A stretch of DNA of 64,000 nt from Streptococcus infantarius subsp. infantarius ATCC BAA-102 (GTDB taxonomy: Bacteria; Bacillota; Bacilli; Lactobacillales; Streptococcaceae). The position numbers were made by a program, and so were the translations under genes. The first letter of the stretch is position 1, and every line of letters starts with the position of its first letter. Location of the stretch: assembly GCF_000154985.1 (NCBI RefSeq), contig NZ_DS572687.1, positions 24,084 through 88,083 of the forward strand, read 5' to 3'. Shown one piece after another: positions 1,417-57,458 of this stretch. The notes beneath the pieces are model-generated. The model saw nothing but the letters and a program-made list of their open reading frames with translations. It ran no database searches and was not told where the DNA came from.

Positions 1417-3357
1417 TTAGTATTTTCCTAACTCTCTTAAACTTGTGTGATTTTCTTGAATACGACGGAACATTTTTTCCATGTCTGACTTGGTAAAATT
1501 AACAAGTACTGGACGTCCGTGTGGGCAGTTATAAGGGTTCTTACATTGAGATAATTGAACAATGAGTTGTCGGGCTGAATAGTCATCAAGTGTATGGTTA
1601 GCCTTGATTGATCGTTTACATGACATCATAATCGCTAACTCAGCGCGGTATTTCTTGACAGAAACTCCATTGGTCAACAGCAACATGTCGCACATTTCAT
1701 AAACAGCTGTCTCAATCTCCTCTTCCTTCATCCAAATAGGATGCTCGCGAAGGATAAAAGTATTATTGCCGTATGGTTCTAAATTAATGCCAACTTGCTT
1801 TAGAAGCTCCATTTTTTCTTGAATTTTGATGAAATCTGCCCCAGAAAACTCAAATAGATATGGCATCAGCAACTGTTGTAATGAATCATCAACTTCGCCA
1901 ATTTTGTCACGATAATACTCATACTTGACACGTTCCTGAGCCGCATGCTGGTCAATGATATAAAGCCCACCATTGCCTTGCGCAAAAAGATAAGTGCCGT
2001 GCATTTGCCCAAAGTACTCTAACTCAGGGAAAGTAGAAACTTCCTCCTTATCAAGACTTTCAATCATGCGATTGATTTTCGTTTTATTTTTAAAATCAAG
2101 ATCATCATGCTCATCATACGCTTGACCTGCCAATGAACGCTGTGCATACCTAACTGAAGATTGCTTGTCAACTTGCTTGACAGCTTTGTCAACCTCATTA
2201 AATAACTGCGCTGGCTCTTCTTCAACCGTATCTGATTTCACAAAGAAATCGTGACGTTCCTTATCATAGTAAAGGTTGGTTTGTTTTAAAGGCAGACTCG
2301 TTTGCTGAGGTTTTGAAAAACCTCGAGTACTTGACTTAGCTAGATTTTCAAGAGCATCTGGAATCAAATCTTGCTCACGCAAACTCTCTGCAATAGCTGA
2401 GCTAATTAAGCCCATGAGTTCTTTTTCTTTTGAGATACGAACTTCTTGTTTAGTTGGGTGAACATTGACATCGGCAAGATAAGGGTCGATTTGAATGTCA
2501 ATGACCGCAATTGGGAAACGACCAACCATCAATTTTGATCCATAACCATCCAAAATCGCACGGTTGAGCAAGAAGTTTTTGATGTAGCGACCATTAATTA
2601 AAATGGTAATGTAATTGCGATTTGCACGCGTCAATTCTGGTAAACTAATATAACCTGAGACTTCAAAATCAAGGTCAGCATTTGAGATTTCAATCATTTT
2701 CTTAGCTGTATTTAAACCGTAAATACCAGCGATGGCTTGACGCAAATCACCTGTCCCAGAAGTCGTTGTCATTTGACGACCATCATTAATCAAAGTAAAG
2801 GCAATTTCTGGGTGAGCTAGGCTCAAGCGATTAACCACATCAACGATATGAGCCAACTCTGATTGCAAGCTCTTCATATATTTGAGACGAGCAGGAGTGT
2901 TGTAAAAAAGATTTTCAACGGTAATTTTTGTCCCGACAGGTGTTGAAATTGCTTCTTGTCGCTCAATCTCGCCCCCCTTTGCCACTAAAAGCGTTCCATA
3001 GTGTTCATCAGCAGTCGCTGTTTTCACTGTAAAGTGGCTAATTGAGGCAATGGAAGGAATGGCCTCACCGCGGAATCCCAAAGTTCTGATACGAAAAAGG
3101 TCAGCTTGGCTTTTAATCTTACTTGTAGCATGGCGATGCAAACTTAAAGCCACATCCTCTTGAGAAATTCCCTCACCATTATCAGTGACTTGAATATTCT
3201 TAAGACCTGATTCTTCAATCTCGATGGTAATCTGACTACTTCCAGCATCAATCGAATTTTCAACCAATTCTTTAACCACACTGGCCGGTCGTTCAATCAC
3301 TTCACCTGCAGCAATCTGGTTGGCCAAAACCTCTGGCAACTCAATAATTTTGCTCAT
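1417..3357 (-). CDS. mutL: DNA mismatch repair protein MutL
   Basis: Mismatch-repair ATPase and nicking endonuclease acting after MutS. The GHKL ATPase motifs are visible near the N-terminus: [27 protein letters not shown] and [12 protein letters not shown]. The C-terminal half carries the metal-binding endonuclease motif DQHA-x2-E-x4-E ([12 protein letters not shown]) plus SCKRSIKA and CPHGRP, as in MutL proteins of bacteria that lack MutH. The linker between is acidic and lysine-rich. Length of 646 aa is typical. It is separated from mutS by a terminator, so it probably has its own promoter; a TATAAT sits at 3427-3432 on the minus strand. It heads mutL-ruvA-tag. Confidence 0.97.
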
Positions 3358-3440
3358 AATTTATCTGATAGAATGCAGTTTTGAAGCGGCATTCCTTTTC
3401 CTTTCATTCAGGATTGTTTACCTTTAATTATAACACAAAG

Positions 3441-3469
3441 TAAAAAGGCAATCTGCTTTTAGATTGCCT
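3441..3469 (-). terminator. Rho-independent terminator after mutS
   Basis: A perfect 9-bp stem (AGGCAATCT / AGATTGCCT, 6-nt loop) is followed on the minus strand by a T-run. It separates the argR-ylbF-mutS transcript from mutL. A possible mutL -10 (TATAAT, 3427-3432) lies immediately downstream. Confidence 0.8.
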
Positions 3470-3476
3470 CTTACTT

Positions 3477-6044: not shown

Positions 6045-6384
6045 TACTTAACTCCTCGTTAATTTTCGTTTCCAAGCTATTTGTAATATATTGAACTAGG
6101 TCACTGGCATCCTGCATTTTTGCACGATAATCTTTGACAATTGGAAGGTCTGATAGTTCTTCTTGCAACTGGTCAGCTTGCTCACCAGCTTTTTTCTCAG
6201 CGTGCGCTTTATCAATCTTGTGAAAAAGCACAGCCTCCTGCTGATAAGCCTTCATATCTTTGATCAATTCTTCTAGTTCTGGAAAGTCCTTTATTTTTTC
6301 TTCAGCCTTTTGAAATTCGATGACGCTATCATGCTTTTTTATGACTTCTAGCAATCGTTCTACGGCTTCTTCATAGTTGCTCAT
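6031..6384 (-). CDS. YlbF/YmcA family protein
   Basis: A 117-residue, highly charged, mostly helical protein (many E, K, D and Q; no Cys). It resembles the YlbF/YmcA (DUF964) family. In Bacillus subtilis YlbF, YmcA and YaaT form a complex that affects mRNA processing by RNase Y as well as competence, sporulation and biofilm. Streptococcal members commonly sit between argR and mutS, as here. It overlaps argR by 4 nt (ATGA) and mutS by 14 nt, so it is translationally coupled to both. The role in this organism is inferred from family only. Confidence 0.8.
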
Positions 6385-6818
6385 AAGCCTGTTGACAAGT
6401 CACTTTCAAAGGCTTTTGCTGTTTCTTCATCTTTACAAATGACCAACAAAGTATCAGCGCCAGCCACAGTTCCTAAAATTTCAGCGATATCGCTGCTGTC
6501 AATCAAGTTGGCTAAAACATCAGCTTCCCCAAGATTAGTATGAAGCACAAGCATGAAACCAGCACGAGCCACTTTCAAAATATATGAGCGAATGTTAGCT
6601 CCAAAAGTGGTCTCTGACGTTTCAGACAAACTGTAATAAAGTTTTCCAGAAGCATCGCGCAATTTCAACAGTCCAATTTCACGAAGGTCACGTGACAAGG
6701 TCGCTTGAGTGACGTTAATGCCTTCTTCCTGCAAATGTCGCTTGATTTCCTCTTGTGTGCCGATATGGCCTGATTGAATCAAACGTTTGATTCGATTTTG
6801 ACGTTCTATTTTATTCAT
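6381..6818 (-). CDS. argR: Arginine repressor ArgR/AhrC family
   Basis: Arginine-responsive transcription factor. Residues 1-65 form the winged-helix DNA-binding domain, with the characteristic recognition segment [18 protein letters not shown]. The C-terminal domain carries the oligomerisation and arginine-binding signature [12 protein letters not shown]. Length (145 aa) is standard. AAAGGGAAAG precedes the ATG. It is divergent from argS with a 189-bp shared intergenic region. Streptococci often carry several ArgR paralogues, so whether this one controls arginine genes or local genes cannot be told from the sequence. Confidence 0.94.
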
Positions 6819-6851
6819 TTAACTTTCCCTTTGTGTATATTTATCCTTAAA

Positions 6852-6880
6852 ATTATACCAAAAAAATGGAATTTTTTCAC
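6852..6880 (-). promoter_or_regulatory. Putative promoter of argR-ylbF-mutS
   Basis: Minus strand: -10 TATAAT (6852-6857), 17-bp spacer, -35 GTGAAA (6875-6880, 4/6 match). It lies about 35-60 bp upstream of the argR start codon. Confidence 0.5.
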
Positions 6881-7007
6881 CTTTCCTTGGGCTATCTTCC
6901 TTATAAAGTCTTAATTTTTACTCCTTCAAACGTTTTCTTGTCACTTGCCTCGTTTATTTCTTATTTTTATGTTAAAATAATGTGACTAACTAATTTAGGA
7001 GAAAATC

Positions 7008-8699
7008 ATGGATACTAAACGTACAATTGCAGAACGCATTCACACTATTGTTCCAGAATTAGACCAAGAACAAATTGTTAATCTGCTTGAAGTGCCAAAA
7101 AATTCTGATATGGGGGACCTTGCCTTTCCAGCATTCTCATTGGCTCGAATCCTTCGTAAAGCACCACAAATGATTGCAGCAGAAATTGCTGAAAAAATGG
7201 ACACAGCTGGTTTTGAAAAAATCGAAGCTGTTGGACCATACATCAACTTCTTCCTTGACAAAAAAAGCATCTCTGCTGATGTCCTAGGGCAAGTTATCGC
7301 AAACGGAAGCGACTACGCTAGCCAGGATGAAGGACACGGCCGCAATGTTGCTATCGATATGTCTAGTCCAAACATCGCTAAACCATTCTCAATTGGACAC
7401 CTTCGTTCAACTGTTATCGGTGATAGCTTGGCTAACATTTTTGAAAAACTTGGTTATAAAGCTGTTAAAATCAACCACCTCGGTGACTGGGGTAAACAAT
7501 TCGGTATGTTGATTGTTGCCTACAAAAAATGGGGTGACGAAGAAGCTGTTAAAGCTCATCCAATCGACGAACTCTTGAAACTTTACGTTCGTATCAACGC
7601 TGAAGCTGAAACTAAACCAGAACTTGATGAAGAAGCTCGCGAATGGTTCCGTAAATTGGAAGCAGGCGACGAAGAAGCTATCTCACTATGGCAATGGTTC
7701 CGTGACGAAAGTCTTGTAGAATTCAACCGCCTTTACAATGAACTTGGTGTTTCATTTGATAGCTTTAACGGTGAAGCTTTCTACAATGACAAAATGGATG
7801 AAGTTGTCGATATCTTGACTGAAAAAGGCCTTCTTGAAGAATCTCAAGGTGCTCAAGTTGTTAACCTTGAAAAATACGGTATCGAACACCCAGCATTGAT
7901 TAAAAAATCTGATGGTGCAACACTTTACATCACACGTGACTTGGCTGCCGCTCTTTACCGCAAACGTACTTATGACTTTGCCAAAGCTATCTACGTTGTT
8001 GGTAACGAACAATCAGCTCACTTCAAACAATTGAAAGCCGTTCTTAACGAAATGGACTTTGAATGGAATGAAGACATCACTCACGTGCCATTTGGTCTTG
8101 TTACTAAAGAAGGTAAAAAACTTTCAACTCGCAAAGGTAACGTTATCCTTCTTGAACCAACAATCGCTGAAGCTGTTAAACGAGCTGAAGATCAAATCAA
8201 CGCTAAAAACCCTAACCTTGCTGATAAAGAAGCTATTGCTCATGCTGTCGGTGTCGGCGCTATCAAATTCTACGATTTGAAAACAGACCGCTTGAACGGT
8301 TACGACTTCGACCTTGACGCTATGGTATCATTTGAAGGTGAAACTGGACCTTACGTGCAATACGCTCACGCTCGTATCCAATCAATCCTTCGTAAAGCCA
8401 AGTTTACACCATCTGTAAACGACGTTTACAGCCTTGATGATGCTGAAAGCTGGGAAATTGTGAAACTTATCCAAGACTTCCCACGCATTATCAAACGTGC
8501 AGCTGACAACTTTGAACCATCAATCATTGCAAAATTCGCTATCAGCCTTGCACAAAGCTTCAACAAATACTACGCACACACACGTATCCTTGACGAAAGT
8601 CCAGAACGTGACAGCCGTCTAGCCCTCAGCTACGCAACTGCTACAGTTCTTAAAGAAGCACTTCGTCTTCTTGGCGTTGAAGCACCAAACGAAATGTAA
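7008..8699 (+). CDS. argS: Arginyl-tRNA synthetase
   Basis: Class I aminoacyl-tRNA synthetase charging tRNA-Arg. The N-terminal additional domain (residues 1-110) is followed by the HIGH-type signature [16 protein letters not shown]. The catalytic core continues to [12 protein letters not shown], which occupies the KMSKS position, and the C-terminal DALR anticodon-binding domain contains [11 protein letters not shown]. The length of 563 aa is normal. AGGAG lies 6 nt upstream of the ATG. Codon use is strongly biased to highly-expressed-type codons. It ends at a clear terminator (8724-8753). No T-box is visible in the leader. Confidence 0.97.
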
Positions 8700-8723
8700 T
8701 CATTTCTGACAATATATAAAAAA

Positions 8724-8753
8724 GAGAGTTGGAATCTGTCCACTCTCTTTTTT
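8724..8753 (+). terminator. Rho-independent terminator after argS
   Basis: GAGAGT-T-GG pairs with CCACTCTC (one bulged T, 7-nt loop) and is followed by six T on the plus strand. Confidence 0.85.
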
Positions 8754-8813
8754 CTTGATCTTTTTGAGCTAAAATAATAAACTATTGCCATAATCATAAA
8801 GGAGATTTTTATT

Positions 8814-9112
8814 ATGACAAGGGAAAATCATCTCATGGAATTGCTCGGTAAAGCTTATGCTAGCTTACCTGATAGCGAACCGAACCTCTAAAAGCAGACA
8901 TCTTTGCACTTGCTAAAGATTTGGAAAAAAACGAACACGATCAACTAGCACGTACCAAACTGGCTCATGCCATTTCTATGTATTTGCTAACGCATAAACT
9001 CAAGACATCACCTGAAATTACAGCACTTTACAAAGAAATTGCTGACAGCCCTGAAAAATATAAAGGTCATGCCGCTACTGCTATTATGCTAGGCAGCCTC
9101 TTTCATCCATAG
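8814..9112 (+). pseudogene. Bacteriocin immunity protein (EntA-immunity type), frameshifted
   Basis: A ribosome binding site (AGGAG) and ATG at 8814 open a frame that reads MTRENHLMELLGKAYASLPD and stops at 8889-8891. The rest continues in another frame (EPLKADIFALAKDLEKN onward) to the stop at 9110-9112. The break sits on a tandem 5-bp duplication, GAACC at 8877-8881 repeated at 8882-8886; removing one copy restores a single frame of about 97 residues. The reconstructed protein is a small helical cytosolic protein resembling the enterocin A immunity family, which protects a producer or bystander from class II bacteriocins. No bacteriocin structural gene is adjacent. Lesion is seen directly; family call is moderate. 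Confidence 0.75.
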
Positions 9113-9114
9113 TC

Positions 9115-9142
9115 AAAAAGACCATTTTAACGGTCTTTTTTT
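9115..9142 (+). terminator. Bidirectional terminator between immunity pseudogene and esterase
   Basis: Stem AAAAGACC / GGTCTTTT with a loop of 8 nt, flanked by A-runs and T-runs on both sides. It serves both the plus-strand pseudogene and the convergent minus-strand esterase. Confidence 0.7.
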
Positions 9143-10559
9143 ACGCTTTCTTCTGGTCATTTAACCAATCAAAGATATTGTGATAGGTTTTCCCTGAGAC
9201 TTTAGTTGTGCTTGTGCCGCCTTTTCCTTTATTACTTGGAGAAAAGCCTGATAAGTCTTTCGCACTTTTGATAGCAGAGGCATCCTGCACCCCTGACACT
9301 TGGTCTTTAAAGAAATAAATCCAAGACAAATGCCCAATGTAAGAGACACCTTGCATGTCTGTTCCCTCGACACTTTCAAAGTAAGAAAACCACTTGTTCT
9401 CAGCTCCACTATCTAGCAAAGTCTTATAAATAGGCAATGAATAATCCTTTGGATTGACAATAGTGTCATTGGCTGCGTGAATAAACCACATTGGTGTCTC
9501 TTTTAACGCTAGCATTTTTTCCTCATCAAAATAAAGGGCATCTTTACGAATGAAGCTATTAGAAAAAGGTGAAGTGGCGTATGAACCGTCAGCGTTTCTC
9601 TCATATTGATAATAAGAATAGGCTGCCGCTTGAGGAACTAGAGCCGCAAAATAACCAGGATTTGAAATAGCAAGATTAATCGTCATGTAGCCACCATTTG
9701 AACAACCTGCTAGGTAAATGCGATTGGTATCCACAGCAGGCGTACTCGCAACATAATTTTTGATGATATCCATCAGAATCTCTGTGTAACACGAATCGCC
9801 AGCGCCAGCACCATTGTTCCCATCGCCCTCATCCATCCAATATGTTGGGGTTTGAACCGCTAAAACATAAAGTCCTTTTTGATCATTTATTGAAAAATGC
9901 GATTGAATCTCAGGTCTTGCAAGAGCTACAACTTCATTTCCAAGAAGGGTAATGTCCGTGTCTACCCCACCTTCACCTTGACCATGCAACCAGATTAACA
10001 AAGGAAAACTTTCTCCCGATTTTAAGTGCTTAGGTTCGTAAGCCACATAATGAAGGGTGAGTTTTTCTGTTTGCTTCGTTAATGGATTGAGGTAAGTCCC
10101 AGAATAAAAGCCACGCTTATTAAAGACATCAGTATCAGGTGATAGACGGTTATGAATAATATCATAGCTTCCAGATAGTTCAGCCACTTCACCGTCACAA
10201 ATTACCTCTAATCCATTTATAGTAACTGGATAATCTTCCAACCAAGTGTTATGCAAGGTTTCTAGATTGTAATAAAATGGACAAGCTATAGCTGCATTTT
10301 TCTGATTATCAAAAGTCACTGGCATTTTGATAACTAGATACTCACTGGCACTGCTGACTTCTTGTCCCTTATCATCTGACAAGTACACTCTACTAATCTG
10401 ACGTTCTTTACCTGCAGTCCTGACTAGGAGCTTATCAGCAACAACTCCTGACACTTTATGCGTTAACTGTACCAAAAGTTTTGGAACACCTGGTCCACAT
10501 TCATAACCTTTAATAATCATGGAAACTTTGGCAATTGTGATATTAATTCTTTTTGCCAT
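9141..10559 (-). CDS. Alpha/beta-hydrolase esterase with N-terminal Ig-like domain
   Basis: A 472-residue serine hydrolase. The first ~150 residues look like the beta-sandwich (EstA Ig-like) domain found in front of some esterases: ITIAKVSMIIKGYECG starts it. The catalytic domain shows the oxyanion segment LLIWLHGQGEGG, nucleophile elbow GCSNGG (Ser), an acid in HAANDTIVNP and the catalytic His in YIGHLSW. No signal peptide is evident, so it should be cytosolic. This architecture is shared with esterases acting on plant-derived or xylan side-chain esters, but the substrate is not determined. AGGAG precedes the ATG. A near-perfect cre site overlaps the likely -10, suggesting carbon catabolite control. 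Confidence 0.75.
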   Translation of the reverse strand: MAKRINITIAKVSMIIKGYECGPGVPKLLVQLTHKVSGVVADKLLVRTAGKERQISRVYLSDDKGQEVSSASEYLVIKMPVTFDNQKNAAIACPFYYNLETLHNTWLEDYPVTINGLEVICDGEVAELSGSYDIIHNRLSPDTDVFNKRGFYSGTYLNPLTKQTEKLTLHYVAYEPKHLKSGESFPLLIWLHGQGEGGVDTDITLLGNEVVALARPEIQSHFSINDQKGLYVLAVQTPTYWMDEGDGNNGAGAGDSCYTEILMDIIKNYVASTPAVDTNRIYLAGCSNGGYMTINLAISNPGYFAALVPQAAAYSYYQYERNADGSYATSPFSNSFIRKDALYFDEEKMLALKETPMWFIHAANDTIVNPKDYSLPIYKTLLDSGAENKWFSYFESVEGTDMQGVSYIGHLSWIYFFKDQVSGVQDASAIKSAKDLSGFSPSNKGKGGTSTTKVSGKTYHNIFDWLNDQKKA

Positions 10560-10579
10560 CTCAAATCACTCCTATGCAT

Positions 10580-10593
10580 TGTAATCGTTTTCT
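10580..10593 (-). promoter_or_regulatory. Candidate cre (CcpA) site over esterase promoter
   Basis: The plus-strand 14-mer starting at 10580 (TGTAATCGTTTTCT) matches the cre consensus TGWAANCGNTNWCA at 13 of 14 positions. It overlaps a possible minus-strand -10 (TACAAT, 10578-10583) just upstream of the esterase start, the position expected for CcpA repression. Confidence 0.6.
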
Positions 10594-10626
10594 TTAGTTT
10601 ATGAATTTTCCGCACTTATGTCAATC

Positions 10627-10660
10627 AAAAAAAAGACGGGTGAAATCACCTCGTCTTTTT
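10627..10660 (-). terminator. Terminator after aspS-yitT-yitT
   Basis: AAAGACG-GGTG pairs with CACC-T-CGTCTTT around a 4-nt loop, with T-runs on both sides, so it can act in either direction. Confidence 0.8.
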
Positions 10661-10662
10661 GA

Positions 10663-11529
10663 CTATTTATCGTAGTTGTTTCTTCTGATTTTAAAGTCAG
10701 AAGAAACAACTTCGTCAACATCTATAATGGAAATAAAAGCATCTGGATCCAAATCAGCCATGATAGCTTTGACATTACGAACTTCACCTGGATTCAAAAC
10801 AACGTACAAGATATTTTTTTCATTTCCTGAGTAAGCCCCTTGTCCATTTAGGTAAGTGACACCACGGTTAATACCATTCAAAATAGCATCCGCAGCTTCT
10901 TGCGATTTTTGGGTAATGATAATCATACCACGTACTGTATAACCACCATTTTGCACAATTGTTAGCACTTGGCTGTACACAAAACTTGCTACCAAAGTGT
11001 AAAGCATGTGTTGCAAATCAATGTAAACAAGTGACGCTGTCAATACAAGGGCATCCACAAATAGAAGCGTTTGACCTAATTTAAAGCCAAATTTTTCCTC
11101 AATCACGCGTCCAATGATATCTGTACCACCTGTCGTTGCACCATATCGAAAAACCAGTCCACTACCTGCACCAGCAAATAAACCAGCAACAACAGCAACC
11201 AACATCATGTCATTTTGTAACACAATTTTCACTGGTACTTGTTGCCAAAACCAGATAAAGAAGGAAAGTAAAACTGTCCCATAAATGGTCAAAGCTAATG
11301 ATTTTCGCCCCAAAACTCTAGCTCCCATGATAAACAAAGGAATATTTAAAATGAGAGAAGTATAAGCTGGGTCAATTTTATAAAGCGCATGGATAATCAA
11401 GGTTACCCCTGCAACTCCACCTTCAGCAAGAGCGTTTGCCATATTAAATTTAACAAAACCAAAGGTATACATTGCTACACCAAGAGCAATCAACAATAAA
11501 CTTCGTACTTGTCTAAGCTTTTGAGCCAT
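10663..11529 (-). CDS. YitT family membrane protein (DUF161/DUF2179)
   Basis: A 288-residue protein with five to six hydrophobic segments in the first ~200 residues (DUF161) and a soluble C-terminal DUF2179 domain that contains GINRGVTYLNGQGAYSG and ends DVDEVVSSDF. Members of the family also contain the GGTDIIG motif seen here in YGATTGGTDIIGRV. The family is widespread in Firmicutes, but its transport or signalling role is not settled. AGGAGG precedes the ATG. It lies 44 nt downstream of a second YitT protein that is coupled to aspS, so all three likely share a transcript ending at 10627. Confidence 0.85.
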   Translation of the reverse strand: MAQKLRQVRSLLLIALGVAMYTFGFVKFNMANALAEGGVAGVTLIIHALYKIDPAYTSLILNIPLFIMGARVLGRKSLALTIYGTVLLSFFIWFWQQVPVKIVLQNDMMLVAVVAGLFAGAGSGLVFRYGATTGGTDIIGRVIEEKFGFKLGQTLLFVDALVLTASLVYIDLQHMLYTLVASFVYSQVLTIVQNGGYTVRGMIIITQKSQEAADAILNGINRGVTYLNGQGAYSGNEKNILYVVLNPGEVRNVKAIMADLDPDAFISIIDVDEVVSSDFKIRRNNYDK

Positions 11530-11573
11530 ATTACACTCCTCCTAAAACTAATTATAGGAAATTAATCAAAAGG

Positions 11574-12512
11574 TTAGTCATCAACAAAACGTCCAATAAT
11601 ATGAACATTTTCAGCAACCGAAACAAAGGCCTTAGGATCTGTTTTCCTCATCAAATATCTGAAATCATTGTACTCTTCACGAGTAATAATAGCTAGCAGA
11701 ACTGCTTTCTTTTCATGATTGTAAGTTCCCTCAGCATTATTTATCTGTGTCGCTCCACGATGAAGTTTAGTGTGAATCATAGCGATAACTTTTTCTGGGC
11801 AGCTGGTTACAATCATTGCCTGCATTTTCTTTTGTTTTGTGAAAATCGCATTCGTCACACGACTTGAGACGAAAATAGTCACCATTGAGTAAAGGGCATA
11901 CTGCCAACCAAATAGGATGCCCGCAAAAATCATGATGACGCCATTTACCACAAGGGAAATACTTCCGACATCACGTCCCGTTTTTTTACGAATGGTCAAG
12001 CTGACAATGTCAGTACCACCACTAGAAATACGTGATTTCAAACTAAATCCAACCCCAGTACCCATAACCAAACCACCAAAAATAGCATTGACAAGTGGAT
12101 CCGCTGTTAGCGTAATCTCTGGAACAATTTGGATGAAGAATGAACTCATAGAAACTGTAATCAGAGTAAAAACGGTAAATTTATGACCAATTTTATACCA
12201 AGCCAAGATTAATAGCGGCAAATTAATGGCATAAAAAACGATAGAAATCGGTAATCTAAAACCAATCAAACGCTCGCTAATCGCTGACAAAACCTGTGCC
12301 AAACCAGTTGCGCCACTTGAATAGACATGTCCTGGTTGGAAGAAGAAGTTTACCGCGATAGCTGAAAGCAAACCATAAAAAAGAGAAGCGGAAATTTTTT
12401 CCGCGTACTTCTCTCTTGAAATGCTTTGCATCGTTTTTAAAAGGCCATATTTCTTAGCCCAACGGCTAACGATATACTTTGTTTTCTTTTTTAAAGATGC
12501 TTTTTTAATCAT
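11574..12512 (-). CDS. YitT family membrane protein (DUF161/DUF2179)
   Basis: A 312-residue paralogue of the next gene, with a longer basic cytosolic N-terminus ([12 protein letters not shown]) before the first membrane segment. It has the family motif SSGGTDIVSLTI in the membrane domain and a C-terminal DUF2179 domain with LHRGATQINNAEGTY. The start overlaps the aspS stop by one base (TAATG). No good Shine-Dalgarno is visible, so translation probably depends on ribosomes finishing aspS. A later in-frame ATG (codon 28) also lacks a binding site. Function beyond family membership is unknown. Confidence 0.85.
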   Translation of the reverse strand: MIKKASLKKKTKYIVSRWAKKYGLLKTMQSISREKYAEKISASLFYGLLSAIAVNFFFQPGHVYSSGATGLAQVLSAISERLIGFRLPISIVFYAINLPLLILAWYKIGHKFTVFTLITVSMSSFFIQIVPEITLTADPLVNAIFGGLVMGTGVGFSLKSRISSGGTDIVSLTIRKKTGRDVGSISLVVNGVIMIFAGILFGWQYALYSMVTIFVSSRVTNAIFTKQKKMQAMIVTSCPEKVIAMIHTKLHRGATQINNAEGTYNHEKKAVLLAIITREEYNDFRYLMRKTDPKAFVSVAENVHIIGRFVDD

Positions 12513-14260
12513 TAGTTATTAGTTTTAGTTGCTAAGGCCAATTCTTCTAATTGTTTGTCTGAAACAAGGCTAGGTGCTTGTGTCATTGGGTCAGTTGCTT
12601 TGTTATTTTTAGGGAAGGCAATAACTTCACGAATGTTGTCTTCACCAGCAAGAAGCATAACGAAACGGTCAAGACCGATAGCAAGTCCACCGTGTGGTGG
12701 GAATCCGTAATTCATAGCTTCTAGCAAGAAACCAAATTGGTCAGCTGCTTCTTCAGCTGTAAAGCCAAGAGCTTTGAACATACGTTCTTGCAATTCACGT
12801 TGGTTGATACGTAGGCTACCACCACCGAGTTCATAACCGTTAAGAACGATATCGTATGCAACAGCACGAACTTTAGCAAGGTCACCTTCTAATTCGTGAG
12901 CTGATTCTTCAGTCGGCAATGTGAATGGGTGGTGAGCAGACATGTAACGCCCTTCTTCTTCAGACCACTCAAACATTGGCCAATCAACAACCCAAAGGAA
13001 GTTGAATTTAGAGTTGTCAACCATATCAAGTTCTTTAGCGATACGTGTACGAAGTGCACCAAGTGTGTTGTTAGCTACTTCAAGTGTATCAGCAACGAAA
13101 AGTACCAAATCATTGTCTTCAAGTTGTAAACTTGCTGTCAACTTATCTTCAATACTTGTCAAGAATTTGGCAACAGGTCCGTTAAGAGAACCATCAGTAA
13201 ATTTAACCCAAGCAAGACCTTTGGCACCAAATTGTTTCGCGAATTCTGTTAATTTATCAATGTTCTTACGTGAATATTTGTCTGCGTTACCTTTAACAAC
13301 GATAGCTTTTACAACTGGAGCTTGTGAGAAGACTTTGAAGTCAACATCCTTGACAACTTCTGTCAAGTCTTGTAAAAGCATTTCGAAACGAGTATCAGGT
13401 TTATCTGAACCGTAGTTGTTCATTGCATCATCATAAGACATACGTGGGAATGGCAATGTAACGTCGATTCCTTTAGTATCTTTCATGACTTTAGCAATCA
13501 TTCCTTCAGTGATATCTTGGATATCTTTATCTGACAAGAATGAAGTTTCCATATCGACCTGTGTAAATTCAGGTTGACGGTCACCACGCAAGTCTTCATC
13601 ACGGAAACATTTAACGATTTGATAGTAGCGGTCGAAACCAGCGTTCATCAACAATTGTTTTGTGATTTGTGGACTTTGTGGCAAAGCGTAGAAATGACCT
13701 TGGTTCACACGGCTTGGTACCAAGTAGTCACGCGCACCTTCTGGAGTAGATTTTGTCAACATTGGTGTTTCAACATCAATAAACTCTAAACCATCCAAGT
13801 AGTTACGGATTGAGTGAGTAACTTTTGCACGTAATTTGAAGTTATTAAGCATTTTTGGACGACGAAGATCCAAGTAACGGTAACGAAGACGGTTATCATC
13901 ACTAACTTCCACATCATCTTTGATTTCAAATGGTGTTGTTTTAGCGGTGTTCAAAACTATCAATGCTGATACTTTCAATTCAACAGCACCAGTTGGCAAG
14001 TTAGTGTTTTCTTGTTCACGTTGTGCAACGACACCAGTTACTTCGATAACAAATTCGTTACGAAGGCTTTCTGCAGTTGCCATAACATCACTTGAAACTT
14101 TCTCTGGGTTGATGACTAATTGCATGATACCTTCGCGGTCACGAAGATCGATGAAAATAAGTCCACCGAGGTCACGACGACGTCCGACCCAACCTTTTAG
14201 AGTAATTTCTTGGCCAATATGTTCGCTGCGAACACGACCAGCATACATTGTACGTTTCAT
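12512..14260 (-). CDS. aspS: Aspartyl-tRNA synthetase
   Basis: Class II synthetase charging tRNA-Asp. The 582-residue protein has the N-terminal OB-fold anticodon-binding domain (residues 1-105, [19 protein letters not shown]), the class II motif 2 region ([16 protein letters not shown]), the bacterial GAD insertion domain (about residues 280-410), and motif 3 ([15 protein letters not shown]). This is the bacterial-type AspRS. GGAG precedes the ATG. A terminator separates it from the upstream hisS; a TATAAT at 14301-14306 on the minus strand could be its own -10. It is translationally linked to a downstream YitT gene. Confidence 0.97.
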
Positions 14261-14316
14261 TTGATATGATTCTCCGTTTTAAATTTATTCATTCCCATCT
14301 ATTATAGCAAAAAGCA

Positions 14317-14346
14317 AAGAAAAACCCCACCCATGTGGGGGAGTTT
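14317..14346 (-). terminator. Terminator between hisS and aspS
   Basis: CCCCAC-CCAT-GTGGGG stem-loop flanked by A-rich and T-rich arms on both sides. On the minus strand it is followed by a T-run and should end the hisS transcript. Confidence 0.75.
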
Positions 14347-14415
14347 TTCAAATTCTTTTCTCATTAAGCCTTTTCATTAACAAAGAGCTCATAACTTTTT
14401 GCAAAGATTGCTTTC

Positions 14416-15693
14416 TTAGCTTAATTTAGCAAGGATTTCTGCAAAGTTTGTTTCGATATCTGCAAAGCTGACTGAAACTTCTTCACGTGTTTTATTATTT
14501 TTAACAGTGACTTGACCTGCTTCAATTTCGCTTTCACCTAATGTGATGACTGTTTTAGCATTGAAAGCGTCAGCTGATTTGAATTGTGCTTTAATCTTGC
14601 GTCCAAGGTAATCACGTTCAGCTGAGAAGCCTTGGTTACGGATAGCTTGTACCAATTCCAAAGCTTTAATGTTAGCACCTTGTCCCAAGACAGCGATGTA
14701 GGCGTCCATTTCTTTTTCAACTGGTAATTCAATACCTTGTTTGTCCAAGATAAGAAGCAAACGTTCAAGACCAAGTCCAAAACCAAATCCAGGTGTTTCT
14801 GGTCCGTCAAAGTATTCAACAAGGCTATCGTAGCGACCACCTGCACAGATTGTCAACTCAGATTTATCAACAGTTGTGATGAATTCAAAGATAGTGTGGT
14901 TGTAGTAGTCAAGTCCACGAACCATATTAGTATCAATTACATATGGGATGTTAAGTGTTTCAAGCATTTCACGCACGGCATCAAAGTGAGCTTGACTTTC
15001 TTCATCAAGGTAATCAAGGATTGATGGTGCATTTTCAACAGCTACTTTATCTTCTTTTTCTTTTGAGTCAAGAACACGAAGTGGGTTTTCATCCAAACGA
15101 CGTTGGCTATCTGCTGACAATTTGTCACGCATAGGTGTCAAATAATCAATCAAAGCTTGACGGTAAGCAGCACGGCTAGCAGCACTTCCTAGAGTGTTCA
15201 AGTGAAGTGTCACATCTTTAATACCCAATGTTTGGAACAATTGGTAAGCCATAGCGATTGTTTCAACGTCTGTAGCTGGATTTGCTGAACCAAAGCACTC
15301 AACACCGACTTGGTGGAATTCACGTAAACGACCAGCTTGTGGACGTTCGTAACGGAACATTGAGCCAATGTAGTACATTTTAACTGGTTTTTGAACTTCT
15401 GGTGCAAATAATTTATTTTCCACAAAAGAACGAACCACTGGCGCTGTTCCTTCTGGACGCAAAGTGATATGGCGGTCACCTTTATCATGGAAATCATACA
15501 TTTCTTTTGTTACGATATCAGTTGTATCACCGACTGAACGACTGATAACTTCATAATGTTCGAACATTGGTGTACGAATTTCACTGTAGTTATATTTTTT
15601 GAAGGTTTCACGTGCAACAGCTTCGATATATTGCCATTTAGCGCTTTCGCTAGGTAAAATATCTTGTGTTCCTTTAGGTTTTTGTAATTTCAT
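14416..15693 (-). CDS. hisS: Histidyl-tRNA synthetase
   Basis: Class II synthetase charging tRNA-His. Signatures: motif 1 region with [10 protein letters not shown] and [11 protein letters not shown], motif 2 [16 protein letters not shown], the histidine-binding signature [12 protein letters not shown], motif 3 [15 protein letters not shown], and the C-terminal anticodon-binding domain (about residues 325-425). The 425 aa length is standard. It is divergent from rpmF, the usual arrangement in streptococci. No T-box element or clear Shine-Dalgarno is visible upstream; the ATG at 15693 is nevertheless the conserved start ([11 protein letters not shown]). Confidence 0.97.
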
Positions 15694-15895
15694 AAATAAG
15701 ATATACCGGCACCAAATTTTTGCAAATTCAGCCCATTAATTCCTTTCTACTATTGTAGCTATTCAATCACTCTTTATTTTATCATAAAAAGGGCAGCTAA
15801 AGAAGAAGGGACTATTTATTTTTCGTATTTTATTAAATCCAAACTCGCCTGAAAACGTTAAATTGCCAACTTTTTCAATTTTTTTGTCAAGTAAC

Positions 15896-15924
15896 TTTAC
15901 TTTACAAAAAAGATATGTTATTAT
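15896..15924 (+). promoter_or_regulatory. Putative promoter of rpmF-rpmG
   Basis: -35 TTTACT (15896-15901), 17-bp spacer, -10 TATTAT (15919-15924), about 58 nt before the rpmF ATG. The 15694-15895 stretch between hisS and this promoter shows no gene. Confidence 0.5.
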
Positions 15925-15981
15925 GTTAAAGTTGATTCAAAATCAAGAACAAATTAAAAATATTATCGGAGGAAATAAAAC

Positions 15982-16158
15982 ATGGCAGTACCTGCACGTC
16001 ACACTTCAAAAGCGAAGAAAAACAAACGTCGTACACACTACAAATTGACTGCTCCATCAGTTAAATTTGACGAAACTACTGGAGATTACTCACGTTCTCA
16101 CCGTGTATCACTTAAAGGATACTACAAAGGACGTAAAATCGCTAAGGCAGCTAAATAA
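15982..16158 (+). CDS. rpmF: 50S ribosomal protein L32
   Basis: A 58-residue basic protein beginning [17 protein letters not shown], the conserved L32 start, with the [17 protein letters not shown] core. It contains no cysteine, so it is the zinc-independent (C-) form usual in streptococci. GGAGG lies 8 nt upstream of the ATG. It is followed after 15 nt by rpmG in a two-gene operon. Confidence 0.96.
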
Positions 16159-16173
16159 TAGAAGGGAGATACC

Positions 16174-16323
16174 ATGCGCGTAAATATTACACTTGAACAC
16201 AAAGAATCTGGTGAACGCTTGTACCTTACTTCAAAAAACAAACGTAACACTCCAGACCGTCTTCAATTGAAAAAATACTCACCAAAATTGCGTAAACACG
16301 TAATCTTTACTGAAGTTAAATAA
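16174..16323 (+). CDS. rpmG: 50S ribosomal protein L33
   Basis: A 49-residue protein ([20 protein letters not shown]) typical of L33. No cysteines are present, so this is the C- form that does not bind zinc. AAGGGAG precedes the ATG. The 3' end of rpmG is a recognised integration site for some streptococcal integrative elements, which matters here because element debris begins just downstream. It is followed by a strong terminator at 16462-16496. Confidence 0.96.
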
Positions 16324-16461
16324 ATAGGTCATTACACGTCAGTTGACGTTTAAAACCTTGATTTTATGCGATTATTGATTTTTTTAATTTCAGTATATTG
16401 CATTAAAAATCAACCAAATGACTACATTTTTTGTGAAATAAAATTAGAAATTTGAATATTC

Positions 16462-16496
16462 AAAAACACCCTAGCAATAATGCTAGGGTGTTTTTT
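16462..16496 (+). terminator. Rho-independent terminator after rpmG
   Basis: Perfect 11-bp stem (ACACCCTAGCA / TGCTAGGGTGT) with a 4-nt loop, followed by T6. It lies 140 nt past the rpmG stop; nothing gene-like was seen in between. Confidence 0.88.
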
Positions 16497-16584
16497 ATTT
16501 GAAAGATACAGCATATAAAGTAATTTAGTACTTTTTTCAACCTTCACTAATCTAATAGAATATGTCTTAGTGGATCCGCATAAT

Positions 16585-17349
16585 CTAATAACTTTTGATA
16601 AGTAGGTAGTTGAGAATCATCAAAACTTCTAATAATTCAAAACCACTTGAAGAAAACAAATACAACAAAAAGTGATTGTCATATTCAGTTAATAGATATG
16701 CCTCAAAATCTGTGCCAAACAATTCCCTATATTCTGCTAATGTTCCAAACCAATACTGCAAATTCTTGTTAATTATCTTTAACATTTTATCAAATGCTAT
16801 TGCTTCATCAGTATAAAAACGAAATGGGAAAAATAATAATAAATTCTTTTGGGTTTCCATCGTTTTTAATGTATTAAGGATATCATAGTCATGGATATCT
16901 TCAGAACTTATATTTTCTTCTTCGTTACGTATCAAAAGTAAATCATTTAATTTCTTATCTTTAAATAAATTATGAAGCCAAGTCATTTTCTGACTTTCTC
17001 TCGTTCTTGCATTACCATAACCAATACCCATTATAGTTTTTTTAATTGAATTACTTGTTAATCTCAACGCTTTACAACAAGATGGTGAAACTAATAACTT
17101 AAAATCTATACTATACTCAATAGAGATGGCATCACATTCTCCATTACTTTCCTTGACTGGCTTTTGATATAAATTATACTTCGATTTCCCTTGAAAATAT
17201 TTAGAACGATTAAGAAACTCCAATAAAAACAACTAGTAATTGGAATCTTCTTCATTCTTAACAAAATTGTTCAACACAACCGCTGCTTGAATTGTTTCAA
17301 CTCCCCATTTAGCATCATCCACTACACTAATAACCTCATTCTCTAAATT
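16585..17349 (-). pseudogene. Unknown protein gene interrupted by a nonsense codon and lacking its start
   Basis: One minus-strand frame runs from 17349 to the stop at 16585 but is broken by TAG at 17233-17235. Upstream of the TAG it reads ENEVISVVDDAKWGVETIQ and so on, without any ATG before an earlier stop at 17350-17352. Downstream it reads 215 residues with only TTG available as a start (17232), directly abutting the TAG and without a Shine-Dalgarno. The simplest reading is a single gene with CAG to TAG and a lost 5' end. The protein is not recognised. A segment ECDAISIEYSIDFK has acidic-acidic-lysine spacing seen in some nucleases, which is only a hint. Base composition is AT-rich like the neighbouring accessory genes. 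Confidence 0.55.
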
Positions 17350-17696
17350 TTATCTTACTTATTATTTTATCACTAATGTAACTGCTTTTAATAGATTTAT
17401 AAAAAGATAGACGAAACCCTTTATATCAGCTTTTGAAACGTTAGAAATTCAAAAAATCTATCATAGGAAAATTCGCTATCTTTTTTCAATTGAAATTCAT
17501 ATAATTAAAGTGGCAAGATTTAAATCTTGTAATTTTATTTTTTTAGTTAAAATTGATGCGCATCAAATGAACAGATTGAAACAAAATACAGTTATATGCA
17601 AAAACAGCTGTATCTAAAAAGTTTTTATCACTTGTTTGGTGCGCTTTTTGTGCTGCTTTCGTTTCTTTCTGTTCTTTGAACAAGAACAGGACAAAA
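17350..17696. other. Gene-free spacer with two inverted repeats
   Basis: About 350 bp without a supported gene. It contains a 14-bp perfect palindrome TTGATGCGCATCAA (17553-17566) and, directly ahead of the next gene, a dyad CTGTTCTT-N5-AAGAACAG (17669-17689). Both may be operators for the neighbouring HTH gene. Confidence 0.5.
17669..17689 (+). promoter_or_regulatory. Inverted repeat just upstream of HTH gene
   Basis: CTGTTCTT / AAGAACAG, perfect 8-bp arms around 5 nt, ending 7 nt before the ATG at 17697. It overlaps the ribosome-binding region, so it could be an autoregulatory operator or an RNA hairpin limiting translation. Confidence 0.5.
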
Positions 17697-18189
17697 ATGA
17701 CATATACAAAATTAATAGCATCAATTTACTGTAAAATTTTAGGTAAAACAATTAAAAATAAGTTAAAAGAAGCGAATATTTTGCAAAATCAGATTTGTTA
17801 CACTGATACTGATGAAGAGACTGTATTGCTTTCTGAAACATCGGTTTGTCAAATTTTAAATGGTAATCGAAACATAACTTACAATGCTGCTCTTGCTTTT
17901 CAAGAAACGCTTAATTATCGCACACCAAAGATTCTTTTTTATACAAGATGATTCTTTTAAAATTAAGTTGCTAATTCAATTAGTGACACTTATTTTAATA
18001 GACTCTAACTTTAATAACACGTTTTTACGACAAAATTTAAGTCAAAAAATCGACGGATTTTCTGAAAAAAATATTCAAAATTTTATTCAATCTCACAAAA
18101 AAATATTTCTCACTTCTCTTTCAAATTTTTTCCCTGATTTTTTAGAAGAAGAAACTTCTTACGAAGTTGCTGAAAAAATAGCTGATTGA
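17697..18189 (+). pseudogene. XRE-like HTH protein with single-base frameshift
   Basis: The first frame (ATG 17697, stop 17949-17951) gives 84 residues including an XRE-type helix-turn-helix: LSETSVCQILNGNRNITYNAALAF. It ends right after a run of six T (17935-17940). A second frame continues without interruption to 18189 (IQDDSFKIKLL onward, ending ETSYEVAEKIAD). Deleting one T from the run joins them into one plausible protein of 163 residues. An alternative TTG start at 17676 falls within a dyad and has no binding site. Such regulators are common in integrative elements and the gene lies next to other element debris. Inactivation, phase variation or a sequencing error are all possible. Confidence 0.6.
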
Positions 18190-18247
18190 TTTTCTGAGTT
18201 TGCTTGCTTAATATCACAACTGTGAAATTCATTGAAATATAATATCT

Positions 18248-19687
18248 TTAGTAGTCTTGACAGTCATATTCCATCTCCAATTCTTGATAGATATAATATC
18301 TCAAAACTTCTTGAAGAAGTAATTTGGTTTCATACATTTCATTAATATCTGTAATTAATTCTGAATATTTTTCTTTTGAATCTCCGTGAGTAAAATAATT
18401 ACGTGTATCAACTAATTTTTTTATTAGTAGTTCTTTATCTCTATCTGAAAAAATTTTATCTTGATTAACTTCATCTATTGAATCAAATAAATTTTTCAAA
18501 CGTTCAGCAAGCCTTGGCTCCTTTTTTTTAGTTTTTAGCCTACCTCTAAATTTTTTTCCAAATTCTTCTAAAATATGTGTATTTATAAAATCAATCAAAG
18601 ATTGTCTAGCCATTTCTTCATCATCAGATAAACATTGTGGAATTTCAAAGTTTTTAAAATTCCTAGAGTAAACTTCTAAATTCCTAATAGTATCAACTAG
18701 TTGATCTTCCAAGTATAAATTACCATGAAGATTCTTTGAAAATTGTCTTACTATAAATTCAAGTTCCTCGGATTTATCAAACCATTGATTTAAAATTTGT
18801 TCAAAATTACCTCCTAATTTCCTCAAAGAAATATCTTGCTGAGAATTTATTTTCCATTTTTTTAACTTTCTGTCATGCTGCACAAAGAATTTTCCTGTTA
18901 TAAGCGGTAACCGTTTATCTTCTACCATTTTGTAATGAACAAGAAATCCAATATTAGTAAAAGATAATGGTATATTTGATAAAATCTCAATAAAATCTTT
19001 AAATTTACGCGAAGCTTGGTAATATTCATCAAAACATCTTCTATCTGAATCAGCTGAGGTAAGTTTGATAAAATAGTCACTTCTAAAAAATTTAGTTGTA
19101 AATGAAGAATGTAAAGTCGCTGTATCTTCAAAATTCATTTTCAAGGATTCTATTAACACATTTGTTGATTGATATTCATCTACTGCACTTTCAAAAACAG
19201 TTTTGTTTTCACTAGATTTGATAGTCACCAATGATTTATCAATCCATTCCTCAATATGTTCGAAACTAAATTTATACATATCGATTTCTTCACGATTCAA
19301 TTTATTAAGCAAATCTTTGAAAGCTTTCGAACTACCATCAAAATTTTCAAGTTCTTGATAAAAGACTTTATAAATTTTAAAATTCTTCACCCTATATTTA
19401 GTTATAGGAAATCCTGGATATGATAAGTTGGACATTGGTTCACCATAAGTATTTAAAATTAAAACTTCACCATTATTTGAAAATCCATATATTTTTTCCA
19501 AATACTTACTAAAACCGAATGGGTTTCCCTCTTCTTCAAACTCACCAAATAATTCTAGTACAATTTCTCTTGGCGAATAATGTAAAATACCACTTAAGTT
19601 ATTCTTGTTTGCAATATCATCAGGAGATTCTGAAAAATAACCTTTTATTTTAAACTCCTTATCCCAACTATAATCTTTAAATTTCAT
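18248..19687 (-). CDS. ApeA-like HEPN-domain anti-phage protein
   Basis: A 479-residue intact protein. The N-terminal part (GYFSESPDD, then SGILHYSPREIVLELFG) fits the ApeA N-terminal domain, a beta-rich domain, and the C-terminal ~150 residues are helical with the HEPN ribonuclease motif R-x4-H (RNYFTH, residues about 429-434). ApeA proteins are single-gene abortive-type phage defences in which the HEPN domain is thought to cleave RNA after infection is sensed. AAAGGAT precedes the ATG; a TATAAT at 19800-19805 on the minus strand may be the -10. The gene is AT-rich and flanked by broken mobile-element genes, consistent with horizontal transfer. Family call is strong, activity is inference. 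Confidence 0.8.
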   Translation of the reverse strand: MKFKDYSWDKEFKIKGYFSESPDDIANKNNLSGILHYSPREIVLELFGEFEEEGNPFGFSKYLEKIYGFSNNGEVLILNTYGEPMSNLSYPGFPITKYRVKNFKIYKVFYQELENFDGSSKAFKDLLNKLNREEIDMYKFSFEHIEEWIDKSLVTIKSSENKTVFESAVDEYQSTNVLIESLKMNFEDTATLHSSFTTKFFRSDYFIKLTSADSDRRCFDEYYQASRKFKDFIEILSNIPLSFTNIGFLVHYKMVEDKRLPLITGKFFVQHDRKLKKWKINSQQDISLRKLGGNFEQILNQWFDKSEELEFIVRQFSKNLHGNLYLEDQLVDTIRNLEVYSRNFKNFEIPQCLSDDEEMARQSLIDFINTHILEEFGKKFRGRLKTKKKEPRLAERLKNLFDSIDEVNQDKIFSDRDKELLIKKLVDTRNYFTHGDSKEKYSELITDINEMYETKLLLQEVLRYYIYQELEMEYDCQDY

Positions 19688-19870
19688 ATTATCCTTTCTA
19701 ATAGCTTTTCAGAACTCTTTCATGACACTACTTTTTACATTAGTAATCACTATAAAATATACATTTCAACAAATACTATTTTTAAACATCAGTACTGATA
19801 TTATACTCCAATTATCAAATTTCTATCAATGGAACTTCCTTATGTGTAGCTAACTCATATCACAATTATG

Positions 19871-19905
19871 AAAATAGACTGTCAGAAATTCTGACAGTCT
19901 ATTTT
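19871..19905. repeat. 35-bp perfect inverted repeat (17-bp arms)
   Basis: Arms AAAATAGACTGTCAGAA (19871-19887) and its exact complement (19889-19905) flank a single A. It lies between the divergent ApeA and integrative-element genes. The A/T ends make it look like a bidirectional terminator, but there are no converging genes here. Confidence 0.75.
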
Positions 19906-19968
19906 GTCAAAACCAGATAAACTAAAAGTATTCTTAGCTAAGACAAGAAAATTTACGAGGTAAAAATT

Positions 19969-20283
19969 ATGAAAACAAATAACCGAAAAATTGGATATTC
20001 TTCTAATACCGCCAATAATTATATTGACAACAAGCAAGCAATCTATTTCTTAAGTACTGAACTTGAACAACAAATTAGATTTGAAAATGGACAACCAACC
20101 CGCGAAATCATCGCCTACAAATCTTGGTTTTCTCAAAAGGGACTACCGCCATTTCAAGTGAAATTTGAATCTGAAGTGGTGCTTCCAGCTTATATGGCAA
20201 TGGTAGAGTTTGATAAATTGGAAGCCTGTGAAGTGGGCTATAATGTCTATTTCCGTGCAAGTGGTATCAAGGAGATAAAATAA
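19969..20283 (+). CDS. Small conserved integrative-element protein
   Basis: A 104-residue protein without membrane segment or signal peptide. It starts MKTNNRKIGYSSNTANNY and has a conserved-looking segment KSWFSQKGLPPFQVKFE. GAGGT lies upstream of the ATG. Its TAA overlaps the ATG of the following FtsK-like gene, an arrangement typical of the first genes in streptococcal integrative and mobilisable elements. Its molecular role is not known. It appears intact, but its operon partner is truncated, so it may be functionless here. Confidence 0.6.
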   Translation: MKTNNRKIGYSSNTANNYIDNKQAIYFLSTELEQQIRFENGQPTREIIAYKSWFSQKGLPPFQVKFESEVVLPAYMAMVEFDKLEACEVGYNVYFRASGIKEIK

Positions 20284-20771
20284 TGGCCAGCAAGGAGATA
20301 TCCCAGTATCTGCTCCAAAGTCTCGATATGGGACTTGGAGCTCTCATGCAGGGGGAAACAAGTTATACAAACAGTTTTGATATTAAAATTATGTCTAATG
20401 GCTTTCTGTTTATTCCTCGCTTACCAGCAGGCTATATCATTGATGATGACCTTTATCAGAAAATTTTTCTAATCGCTAATGCTGCTCTTTATCCACGTTA
20501 TACCCTATTAAAGCAAAATTCAGCCTATTTTATGGCGCTTGATACAGATGATATTCACGTTCAGCGTGGTCTCTTCTTTCCGTGGAAAAAAGGAGTTTCC
20601 GAACGTCTTATCATCTCAGATTTAGAGGAATTTTCAAAAAAGCAAGAAAAAGATATCCTTCCAATTATGAAAAATCTCACTCTAAAATTTAACAAATTGA
20701 CATCTCTAGCTATTGCTGGCAATAGTGGCTCTGGGAAATTATATGCGCTTACTTCTTTTCTGAGTTTATAG
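20283..20771 (+). pseudogene. FtsK/SpoIIIE-like element ATPase, truncated after Walker A
   Basis: The frame begins with AAGGAG and ATG overlapping the previous stop. It gives 162 residues starting MASKEISQYLLQSLDMGLGA and reaches the Walker A loop AGNSGSGK before ending. Proteins of this type, which act as coupling or DNA-translocating ATPases in integrative elements, normally continue for several hundred residues. From about 20757 the sequence matches the orfA end of the IS3-family element found elsewhere in this window, so the 3' part was lost by an IS-associated deletion. The last codons (FLSL) are already IS sequence. Start, N-terminus and junction are seen directly; the family is inferred from the Walker A context. 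Confidence 0.7.
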
Positions 20772-20857
20772 ATGCCTAGTTTATCTTCATAAGTTAATTT
20801 CATACAAAAAGCACCCCAATCGTTAGATTTTGTGTCTAACTTTTGGGGTACGGTTCA
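20757..20857 (-). mobile_element. Relic of IS3-family element (orfA end only)
   Basis: Roughly 100 bp matching the right end of the IS copy at 26784-28224. It encodes the first codons of orfA on the minus strand (MKLTYEDKLGIYKLRK) and ends in the terminal segment TCTAACTTTTGGGGT. The IS body is missing: the left side joins straight into the FtsK-like gene. Confidence 0.8.
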
Positions 20858-20996: not shown

Positions 20997-21266
20997 TTAT
21001 CTAATACTTTTCCTGTAATTAATATACTCGGTTAATGTCATAATTGACAAATTTCCAGATTTATCTTCAACAATATACAAATCATTTAGACCTTCATTGC
21101 TATTGTTATCGAGAATACATTTTGCTTCGATAATTTTTTCTATGGACTCTTGTAGTCCATAGTTAGGAATATCGCATGGCACTTCTAGATATATTGTTCC
21201 TTTATCGGTATTAGATTTAATGGTCAGTTTAACAGGTTTTTCATTTTGTTTAGCATCAAGTATCAC
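20997..21266 (-). CDS. Hypothetical protein
   Basis: An 89-residue protein with a GTG start (21266) reading MILDAKQNEKPVKLTIKSN. It overlaps the 3' end of the upstream broken frame by 11 nt, which suggests the two were a coupled pair. It looks like a small soluble alpha/beta protein with many charged residues and no recognisable motif. No Shine-Dalgarno of its own is clear. I do not recognise it; pairs of small coupled genes can be toxin-antitoxin or immunity modules, but nothing here shows that. Confidence 0.45.
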   Translation of the reverse strand: MILDAKQNEKPVKLTIKSNTDKGTIYLEVPCDIPNYGLQESIEKIIEAKCILDNNSNEGLNDLYIVEDKSGNLSIMTLTEYINYRKSIR

Positions 21267-21516
21267 TACGTTCTTTTTTTATTTTAGAAATAATCTTAAT
21301 AATATCTTTCAAAATATCTACACATAGAGCTATTTTAAGTTCATTTAAAAAGTCATTATTAACCAATATCTCAATAAAAGAATAAAACGAAGCTTGAATC
21401 TGATCATCCCTAAGGAAAGCAACTTCAATATCATTACTTTTTAATCGTTCTTAAATTTCTAACTGTTCGTCAACTGTAAAAAGATCTGGAGCTTTAATTA
21501 GTATTCCCTTTGTCAT
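21256..21516 (-). pseudogene. Hypothetical small protein with internal stop
   Basis: From ATG at 21516 the frame reads MTKGILIKAPDLFTVDEQLEI, then TAA at 21451-21453 (codon 22), and continues in the same frame ERLKSNDIEVAFLRDDQIQ to a stop at 21256-21258. A CAA to TAA change would explain it. The full product would have been 86 residues. It overlaps the next gene's GTG by 11 nt. Function unknown. Confidence 0.6.
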
Positions 21517-27722: not shown

Positions 27723-28166
27723 AGATAAGCATTCTCCGTTCTAAAACGTTCATTCTCTTCAAAAACACGTTCTAGTTCAGTTATCTCTTCCCATTTTTCT
27801 TGGGTTTACGTCCCATCTTACTTGGTCTCCCTCTTGTTTTCTCAACAATAGTATACCTGTTTTTCTTGTATTGTGCTATCCAATTTGTGAGTATAGACAC
27901 TGGTGGGGAAGAGCATAATCAAGCGATACAGTGAGCTGAGATTGGCCTTCAATAAGAACTTTATTAATGATTTCCTGCTCTAAGTCTGGAGAATAATAGT
28001 TATTTTTACCTTTTCTAACCACTTCAACGCCATGTCTCTCCATAAGCCGTACCATGTATTTAAGATTGGAGAGACACACACCGTACTTTCGACTAATATA
28101 AGACTAGAAAAGGCTGTCCTGTCTTAACTGATATATTTCGAGTTTATCTTCATAACTTAATTTCAT
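27629..28166 (-). pseudogene. IS3-family OrfA, multiply disrupted
   Basis: Starts MKLSYEDKLEIYQLRQDS and hits TAG at 28104-28106 (codon 21). The same frame resumes (SYISRKYGVCLSNLKYM), is shifted by extra bases near 27885-27900 after LDYALP, and is disrupted again after MGRKPKK near 27790. OrfA normally supplies the DNA-binding helix-turn-helix and leucine zipper. Confidence 0.8.
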
Positions 28167-28244
28167 ACAAAAACACCCCAATTGTTAGATTTTTTTCTGT
28201 CTAACTTTTGGGGTGCAGGTCACAATGCGATACCTTTTATTTTA

Positions 28245-57452: not shown

Positions 57453-57458
57453 TTCTTC

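Follow-up and report, generated by a model that had tools for sequence, protein, structure and literature searches.

The 64,000-nucleotide stretch of Streptococcus infantarius subsp. infantarius ATCC BAA-102 analyzed here (the window) harbors an intact 479-codon gene on the minus strand at 18248 to 19687, denoted apeA. As judged from its sequence, the encoded protein is ApeA-type and belongs to a family already catalogued as candidate phage-defense systems. The gene lies amid the debris of an integrative mobilizable element (IME), into which it was apparently added as ≈1.6 kb of cargo that has outlasted its carrier. What is new here is the identification of this carrier as an IME, including comparison with an empty site, and the finding that a neighboring gene, c2, is missing from the window copy.

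Domain composition and family of the ApeA-type protein

The open reading frame is intact, as the initial annotation had it, with an ATG start and no internal stop; to this we add the strand. An ApeA-type N-terminus and a C-terminal HEPN domain with an RNYFTH motif had been proposed from the letters of the sequence, and both are borne out by Pfam. ApeA_NTD1 (PF18862) matches residues 14 to 302 (18782–19648, minus strand) with 64.2 bits against a curated cut-off of 25.5, covering positions 2 to 271 of the 271-position profile, and HEPN_Apea (PF18739) matches residues 333 to 475 (18263–18691, minus strand) with 82.5 bits against 24.4, covering 3 to 135 of 136. The HEPN-type motif R429-x4-H434 is encoded at 18386–18403 (minus strand). 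In an alignment of 16 rows, 15 of them distinct and the window protein included, R429, H434, and the adjacent G435 are invariant in every row, as are N336-L337-E338 and R342-N343-F344. Two domains in this order with an R-x4-H motif in one polypeptide are the arrangement of ApeA, which, as a pairing of HEPN_Apea with ApeA_NTD1, was reportedly found to be antiphage by Gao et al. in 2020. The family itself was named in a 2013 survey of HEPN domains, in a part of which it is listed as "Bacteria > Archaea."

The closest catalogued system is PDC-S58, the PADLOC model of which (PDLC05045) matches at full length with 734.3 bits (residues 1–478 aligned to 1–479 of 480); we found no difference between model and protein, and PDC-S58 is itself only a candidate system. 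Three relatives, denoted L042, L050, and L062, score 764, 701, and 560 bits against the same model. Two PADLOC Cas13-ApeA models also match, within residues 286 to 473 (191.6 bits over 286–472), and a search of NCBIfam with the 479-residue protein returned no match. PDC-S58 is tabulated for Streptococcus thermophilus ST55 (Table 3, PMC11514479), and the methods passage of that S. thermophilus study which lists the systems cloned leaves it out. The suggestion that a streptococcal ApeA would be unusual is therefore not supported: the type is already catalogued and occurs in streptococci, so the gene as such carries little novelty.

Consistent with this, apeA matches are found in 14 of 284 Streptococcus genomes. 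Seven of these are full-length open copies of 75 to 76% identity and three are full-length copies of 44 to 47% (G116, G199, and G211); the remaining four genomes have only broken or partial copies, comprising two of 75 to 76% that are interrupted or truncated (G076 and G271) and two fragments (G034 and G035). Across Lactobacillales, 13 of 395 genomes match, two of which are streptococci (G015 and G108), and PF18862 is present in two genomes among 249 sampled from the phylum and in none of 14 control genomes. Seven plasmid records also match: four from Enterococcus (21–29% identity), two at 25% (a Bacillus and a Priestia record), and one from Limosilactobacillus fermentum (68%), in which the reading frame is broken; the phage records searched gave no match. 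One enterococcal plasmid relative (L062, 8001–9509) has IS1216-type transposase genes on either side, and a chloramphenicol-resistance gene lies a few kb away.

A monomer model of the protein has a mean pLDDT of 58. It is helical at residues 391 to 470 (block pLDDT 70–92), with most residues elsewhere below 70, and R429-x4-H434 ends a predicted helix spanning residues 415 to 434. Foldseek with the model gave no match at E ≤ 0.001, and no HEPN chain was recognized among the 50 matches listed in each fold search with this model of mean pLDDT 58; a profile search for a relative of solved structure likewise found none.

The apeA start codon is preceded by a Shine-Dalgarno-like AGAAAGGA (19692–19699, minus strand), and this or a similar site also stands ahead of the start in the eight relatives examined. 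A promoter-like TTGATA-18-TATAAT (19800–19829, minus strand; 11 of 12 consensus matches) lies 113 to 142 bases upstream; it is the best of 32 promoter-like sites in this AT-rich region, for which shuffling also predicts 32.0 sites. The G+C content of apeA is 26.9%, compared with 36.1 to 41.2% over window positions 1 to 16000, taken in sixteen 1-kb bins. Ten relatives are equally AT-rich (27.0–29.5%), which makes low G+C a trait of the family.

A decayed IME around apeA

The patch around apeA is, by homology of its genes, a decayed IME, in which apeA is the sole large intact gene between ≈16.5 and 21.5 kb. It follows two genes at 15982 to 16323 that we take, from their sequences, to be rpmF and rpmG, the latter (16174–16323, plus strand) encoding ribosomal protein L33 and representing an ICE/IME insertion target. 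The 24-nt 3' end of rpmG occurs as a single copy in the window. In S. salivarius, rpmG is described as an ICE/IME target (PMC7563491), and the nearest genome compared (G001; 43% of sampled words in common) carries ≈14.6 kb at the same place, at whose boundaries 17 nt of the rpmG end are repeated.

To the left of apeA lie the remnant of a phrog_4170-like gene (16585–17232, minus strand; PHROGs, 121 bits), with an in-frame stop upstream, and the frameshifted HTH-type IME regulator gene c5 (17676–18225, plus strand), two frames of which match positions 8395 to 8880 of a streptococcal locus denoted L057; in the L057 relative, HTH_3 scores 21.1 bits, under the 23-bit cut-off. To the right are the intact IME gene c6 (19969–20283, plus strand) and the tcpA-like coupling-protein gene c7 (20283–20771, plus strand), in which homology ends at 20757 to 20764, leaving 162 codons versus 359 in L057, or just under half of tcpA. 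Further right is a degenerate relative of a 174-residue gene (20997–21516, minus strand), assigned by homology to the gene 3' of c2 in three streptococci. The claim that apeA is the only large intact gene here thus stands, but not that every other element gene is broken, since c6, at 104 residues, matches the length of its nearest relatives (104 and 107; two more have 130 and 88). The truncated tcpA abuts a repeat at 20778–20849, the second copy of which (28141–28214) is 91% identical; similar stretches occur in many of 40 streptococcal genomes compared.

The window genes c5, c6, and c7 match three consecutive genes of L057, where the order is c5, c6, tcpA-like c7, c67, a PF01719 Rep protein, DUF3173, and a tyrosine integrase, beside ebfC. 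Streptococcal IMEs that combine a Rel_PF01719 relaxase with TcpA are described as class 2 in PMC5357655, and it is such an element in L057 that the c5-c6-c7 run resembles. Relative to it, the window retains only a broken c5, c6, and under half of tcpA, and adjoins rpmG rather than ebfC. No integrase or relaxase was found among window ORFs at 12 to 26 kb (ORF list, with a Pfam scan of 10 and a PHROGs scan of 7), and a search of the window that tolerated up to three mismatches found no copy of the 18-bp ebfC repeat; the integrase, relaxase, and two attachment repeats that together mark a functional IME are not present as a set.

The position of apeA in this backbone is best read against L091, a locus of another streptococcus (G218) in which c5 and c6 are adjacent with no apeA between them. 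Window positions 18129 to 18219 align with L091 13126 to 13218 (E 4e-5) and 19854 to 20757 with L091 13207 to 14123 (E 5e-93), and the two arms meet in L091, with 12 bases in common, where apeA sits in the window, which identifies apeA as ≈1.63 kb of DNA added to the IME backbone. A 17-nt direct repeat brackets the insertion, with one copy at its left edge (18211–18227) and the other at 19857–19873; alone, this repeat does not exceed what shuffled flanks give, and its position agrees with the empty site in L091. L057 has the same gene order without apeA, across a wider unaligned stretch. The L091 element itself (8993–17531) bears an integrase, lies between two 18-bp ebfC repeats (at 8993 and 17514), and carries c2 and no apeA as cargo; it is partly decayed, with c5, c7, and c67 shortened or split. 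S. minor has a 3-kb stretch framed by this 18-bp repeat at ebfC, a site where IMEs are known to insert, and the only ORFs of at least 60 residues in that stretch are c2 and apeA. An ApeA-type gene in Streptococcus would thus represent IME cargo outliving its carrier.

Residence within an IME backbone and, in S. minor, between IME-site repeats would also suit a HEPN protein that works for the mobile element and not for its host, either as an addiction toxin or by attacking rival elements, and PMC7563491 discusses Abi cargo that behaves as a toxin–antitoxin system. We regard this as improbable, given that no antitoxin-like gene was recognized in the ORF lists beside the window copy or the 44 to 47% group, and that apeA has outlasted the mobility genes of the element.

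Selection on apeA

The proposal that the gene is kept by selection is upheld by its substitution pattern. Nei-Gojobori counts give dN/dS ratios of 0.185 to 0.258 against the seven 75 to 76% relatives, from which we conclude that apeA has been retained by selection; against three relatives of 43 to 46% identity the ratios are 0.362 to 0.443, at high pS (0.60–0.65). The three distances among the window copy, L041, and L042 place ≈0.33 synonymous and ≈0.09 nonsynonymous changes per site on the window's own branch, a ratio of 0.27 that is somewhat above those of the L041 and L042 branches. In a neutral simulation, none of 1000 apeA copies was stop-free at 0.1 substitutions per site; set against ≈0.33 on its own branch, this argues that apeA was under selection during most of that time.

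These comparisons bear on whether apeA has recently been silenced and owes its intact frame to chance while its surroundings decay. The adjacent element genes are indeed broken, relatives are broken or partial in 4 of the 14 matching genomes, and a very recent loss of function is compatible with the simulation, in which 7.6% of copies are still stop-free at 0.02 substitutions per site. Weighed against the low long-term dN/dS and a reading frame that stayed free of stops while its own branch gathered an estimated 0.33 synonymous changes per site, recent silencing has, in our judgment, little chance of being correct.

The c2 neighbor and a proposed mode of action

All seven intact 75 to 76% relatives of apeA are preceded, 69 to 82 bases upstream and on the same strand, by c2, a gene of ≈376 codons, which also precedes the interrupted copy in G076; in G108, the c2 product is cut to 189 residues beside an intact apeA. 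Full-length c2 is found at L042 10431 to 11561 and in ten further rows (one with an internal stop), besides the truncated one in G108. Pfam scans of two c2 proteins gave nothing above cut-off. The protein is helical, with two Cys-x2-Cys pairs in a zinc-ribbon-like C-terminus, and this end in one of the two proteins weakly matches PADLOC PDC-M14A (21.8 bits, E 5e-5). Among the 284 Streptococcus genomes, c2 is found in 14, eight with apeA and six without (two of the six being short fragments); with apeA also in 14, the overlap of eight has a hypergeometric P of 8e-9. A 41% relative of c2 (G306, L114) has in its vicinity a gene with weak similarity to tcpA.

In the window, tblastn with eight c2 proteins gave a best E of 0.098, at 51.7 kb, with no match in 19688 to 19968 and one chance match (E 1.3) within apeA. 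Also lacking c2 alongside apeA are the 44 to 47% group (G116, G199, and G211) and the enterococcal relatives examined. In a tree, the window copy falls outside the seven c2-paired copies with moderate support (84/84), a placement that allows either loss of c2 in the window lineage or its later gain elsewhere.

A copy without the gene found beside seven intact relatives might be an incomplete system. If apeA and upstream c2 form a two-gene system, the window copy would be a nonfunctional or altered orphan that lost c2 or never had it, as the constant pairing in the 75 to 76% group, the co-occurrence statistic, and the want of any window match below E 0.098 might suggest. We nevertheless hold this to be rather unlikely: apeA is intact beside a truncated c2 in G108, 6 of the 14 genomes with c2 gave no match to apeA, the more distant relatives examined do without c2, the window gene combines a low dN/dS with a promoter-like site of its own, and its branching outside the paired copies means that c2 may be a later addition. 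Copies with and without c2 provide a natural comparison for whether ApeA acts alone.

We consider it likely that the window protein is a sensor-switched, abortive HEPN RNase that was borne by an IME and kept by selection after the element decayed; the domains, motif, conservation, selection, and insertion are observed, and RNase activity, dimerization, trigger, and defense are extrapolated from the family. HEPN RNases work as dimers through an R-x4-6-H motif. On this model, the β-rich N-terminal domain (residues 14–302) would keep the C-terminal HEPN domain inactive and free it upon detecting a molecule that arises during phage infection, possibly short DNA breakdown products, whereupon two HEPN domains would pair to form the R-x4-H active site and cut cellular RNA, halting phage production by abortive infection. 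Deoxydinucleotides that activate ApeA figure in the title of a preprint cited by PMC13405049. The gene would have arrived as ≈1.6-kb cargo of a Rep-type-relaxase/TcpA IME, which would then have lost its integrase, relaxase, and ends while apeA stayed under selection. In favor of this sensor-switched RNase are the Pfam and PADLOC matches, the invariant motif, the helical 391–470 segment, low dN/dS, insertion into an IME, and the enterococcal plasmid relatives; against it stand the lack of a Foldseek match or solved relative, low pLDDT outside residues 391 to 470, the absence of c2 beside the window copy, and the frequent decay of relatives.

The 174-residue gene (L089 10941–11465) lies 3' of c2 in G135, G263, and G180, with a 17-nt gap in G135 and G263, and is broken in G180; degenerate copies are present in the window, as described above, and in G001. 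A 53% relative in G176 (L116) is found among type I restriction genes. A broader idea, which we regard as rather improbable, is that ebfC-type streptococcal IMEs may shuttle exchangeable defense pieces (c2 with apeA, c2 with the 174-residue gene, c2 with neither in an IME, or apeA alone), with c2 as a putative modulator of ApeA and other effectors and the window as a c2-independent natural variant. Elsewhere in the window, Rfam matches on the minus strand correspond to the sRNA Spd-sr37 (39051–39115) and a T-box leader (57257–57463).
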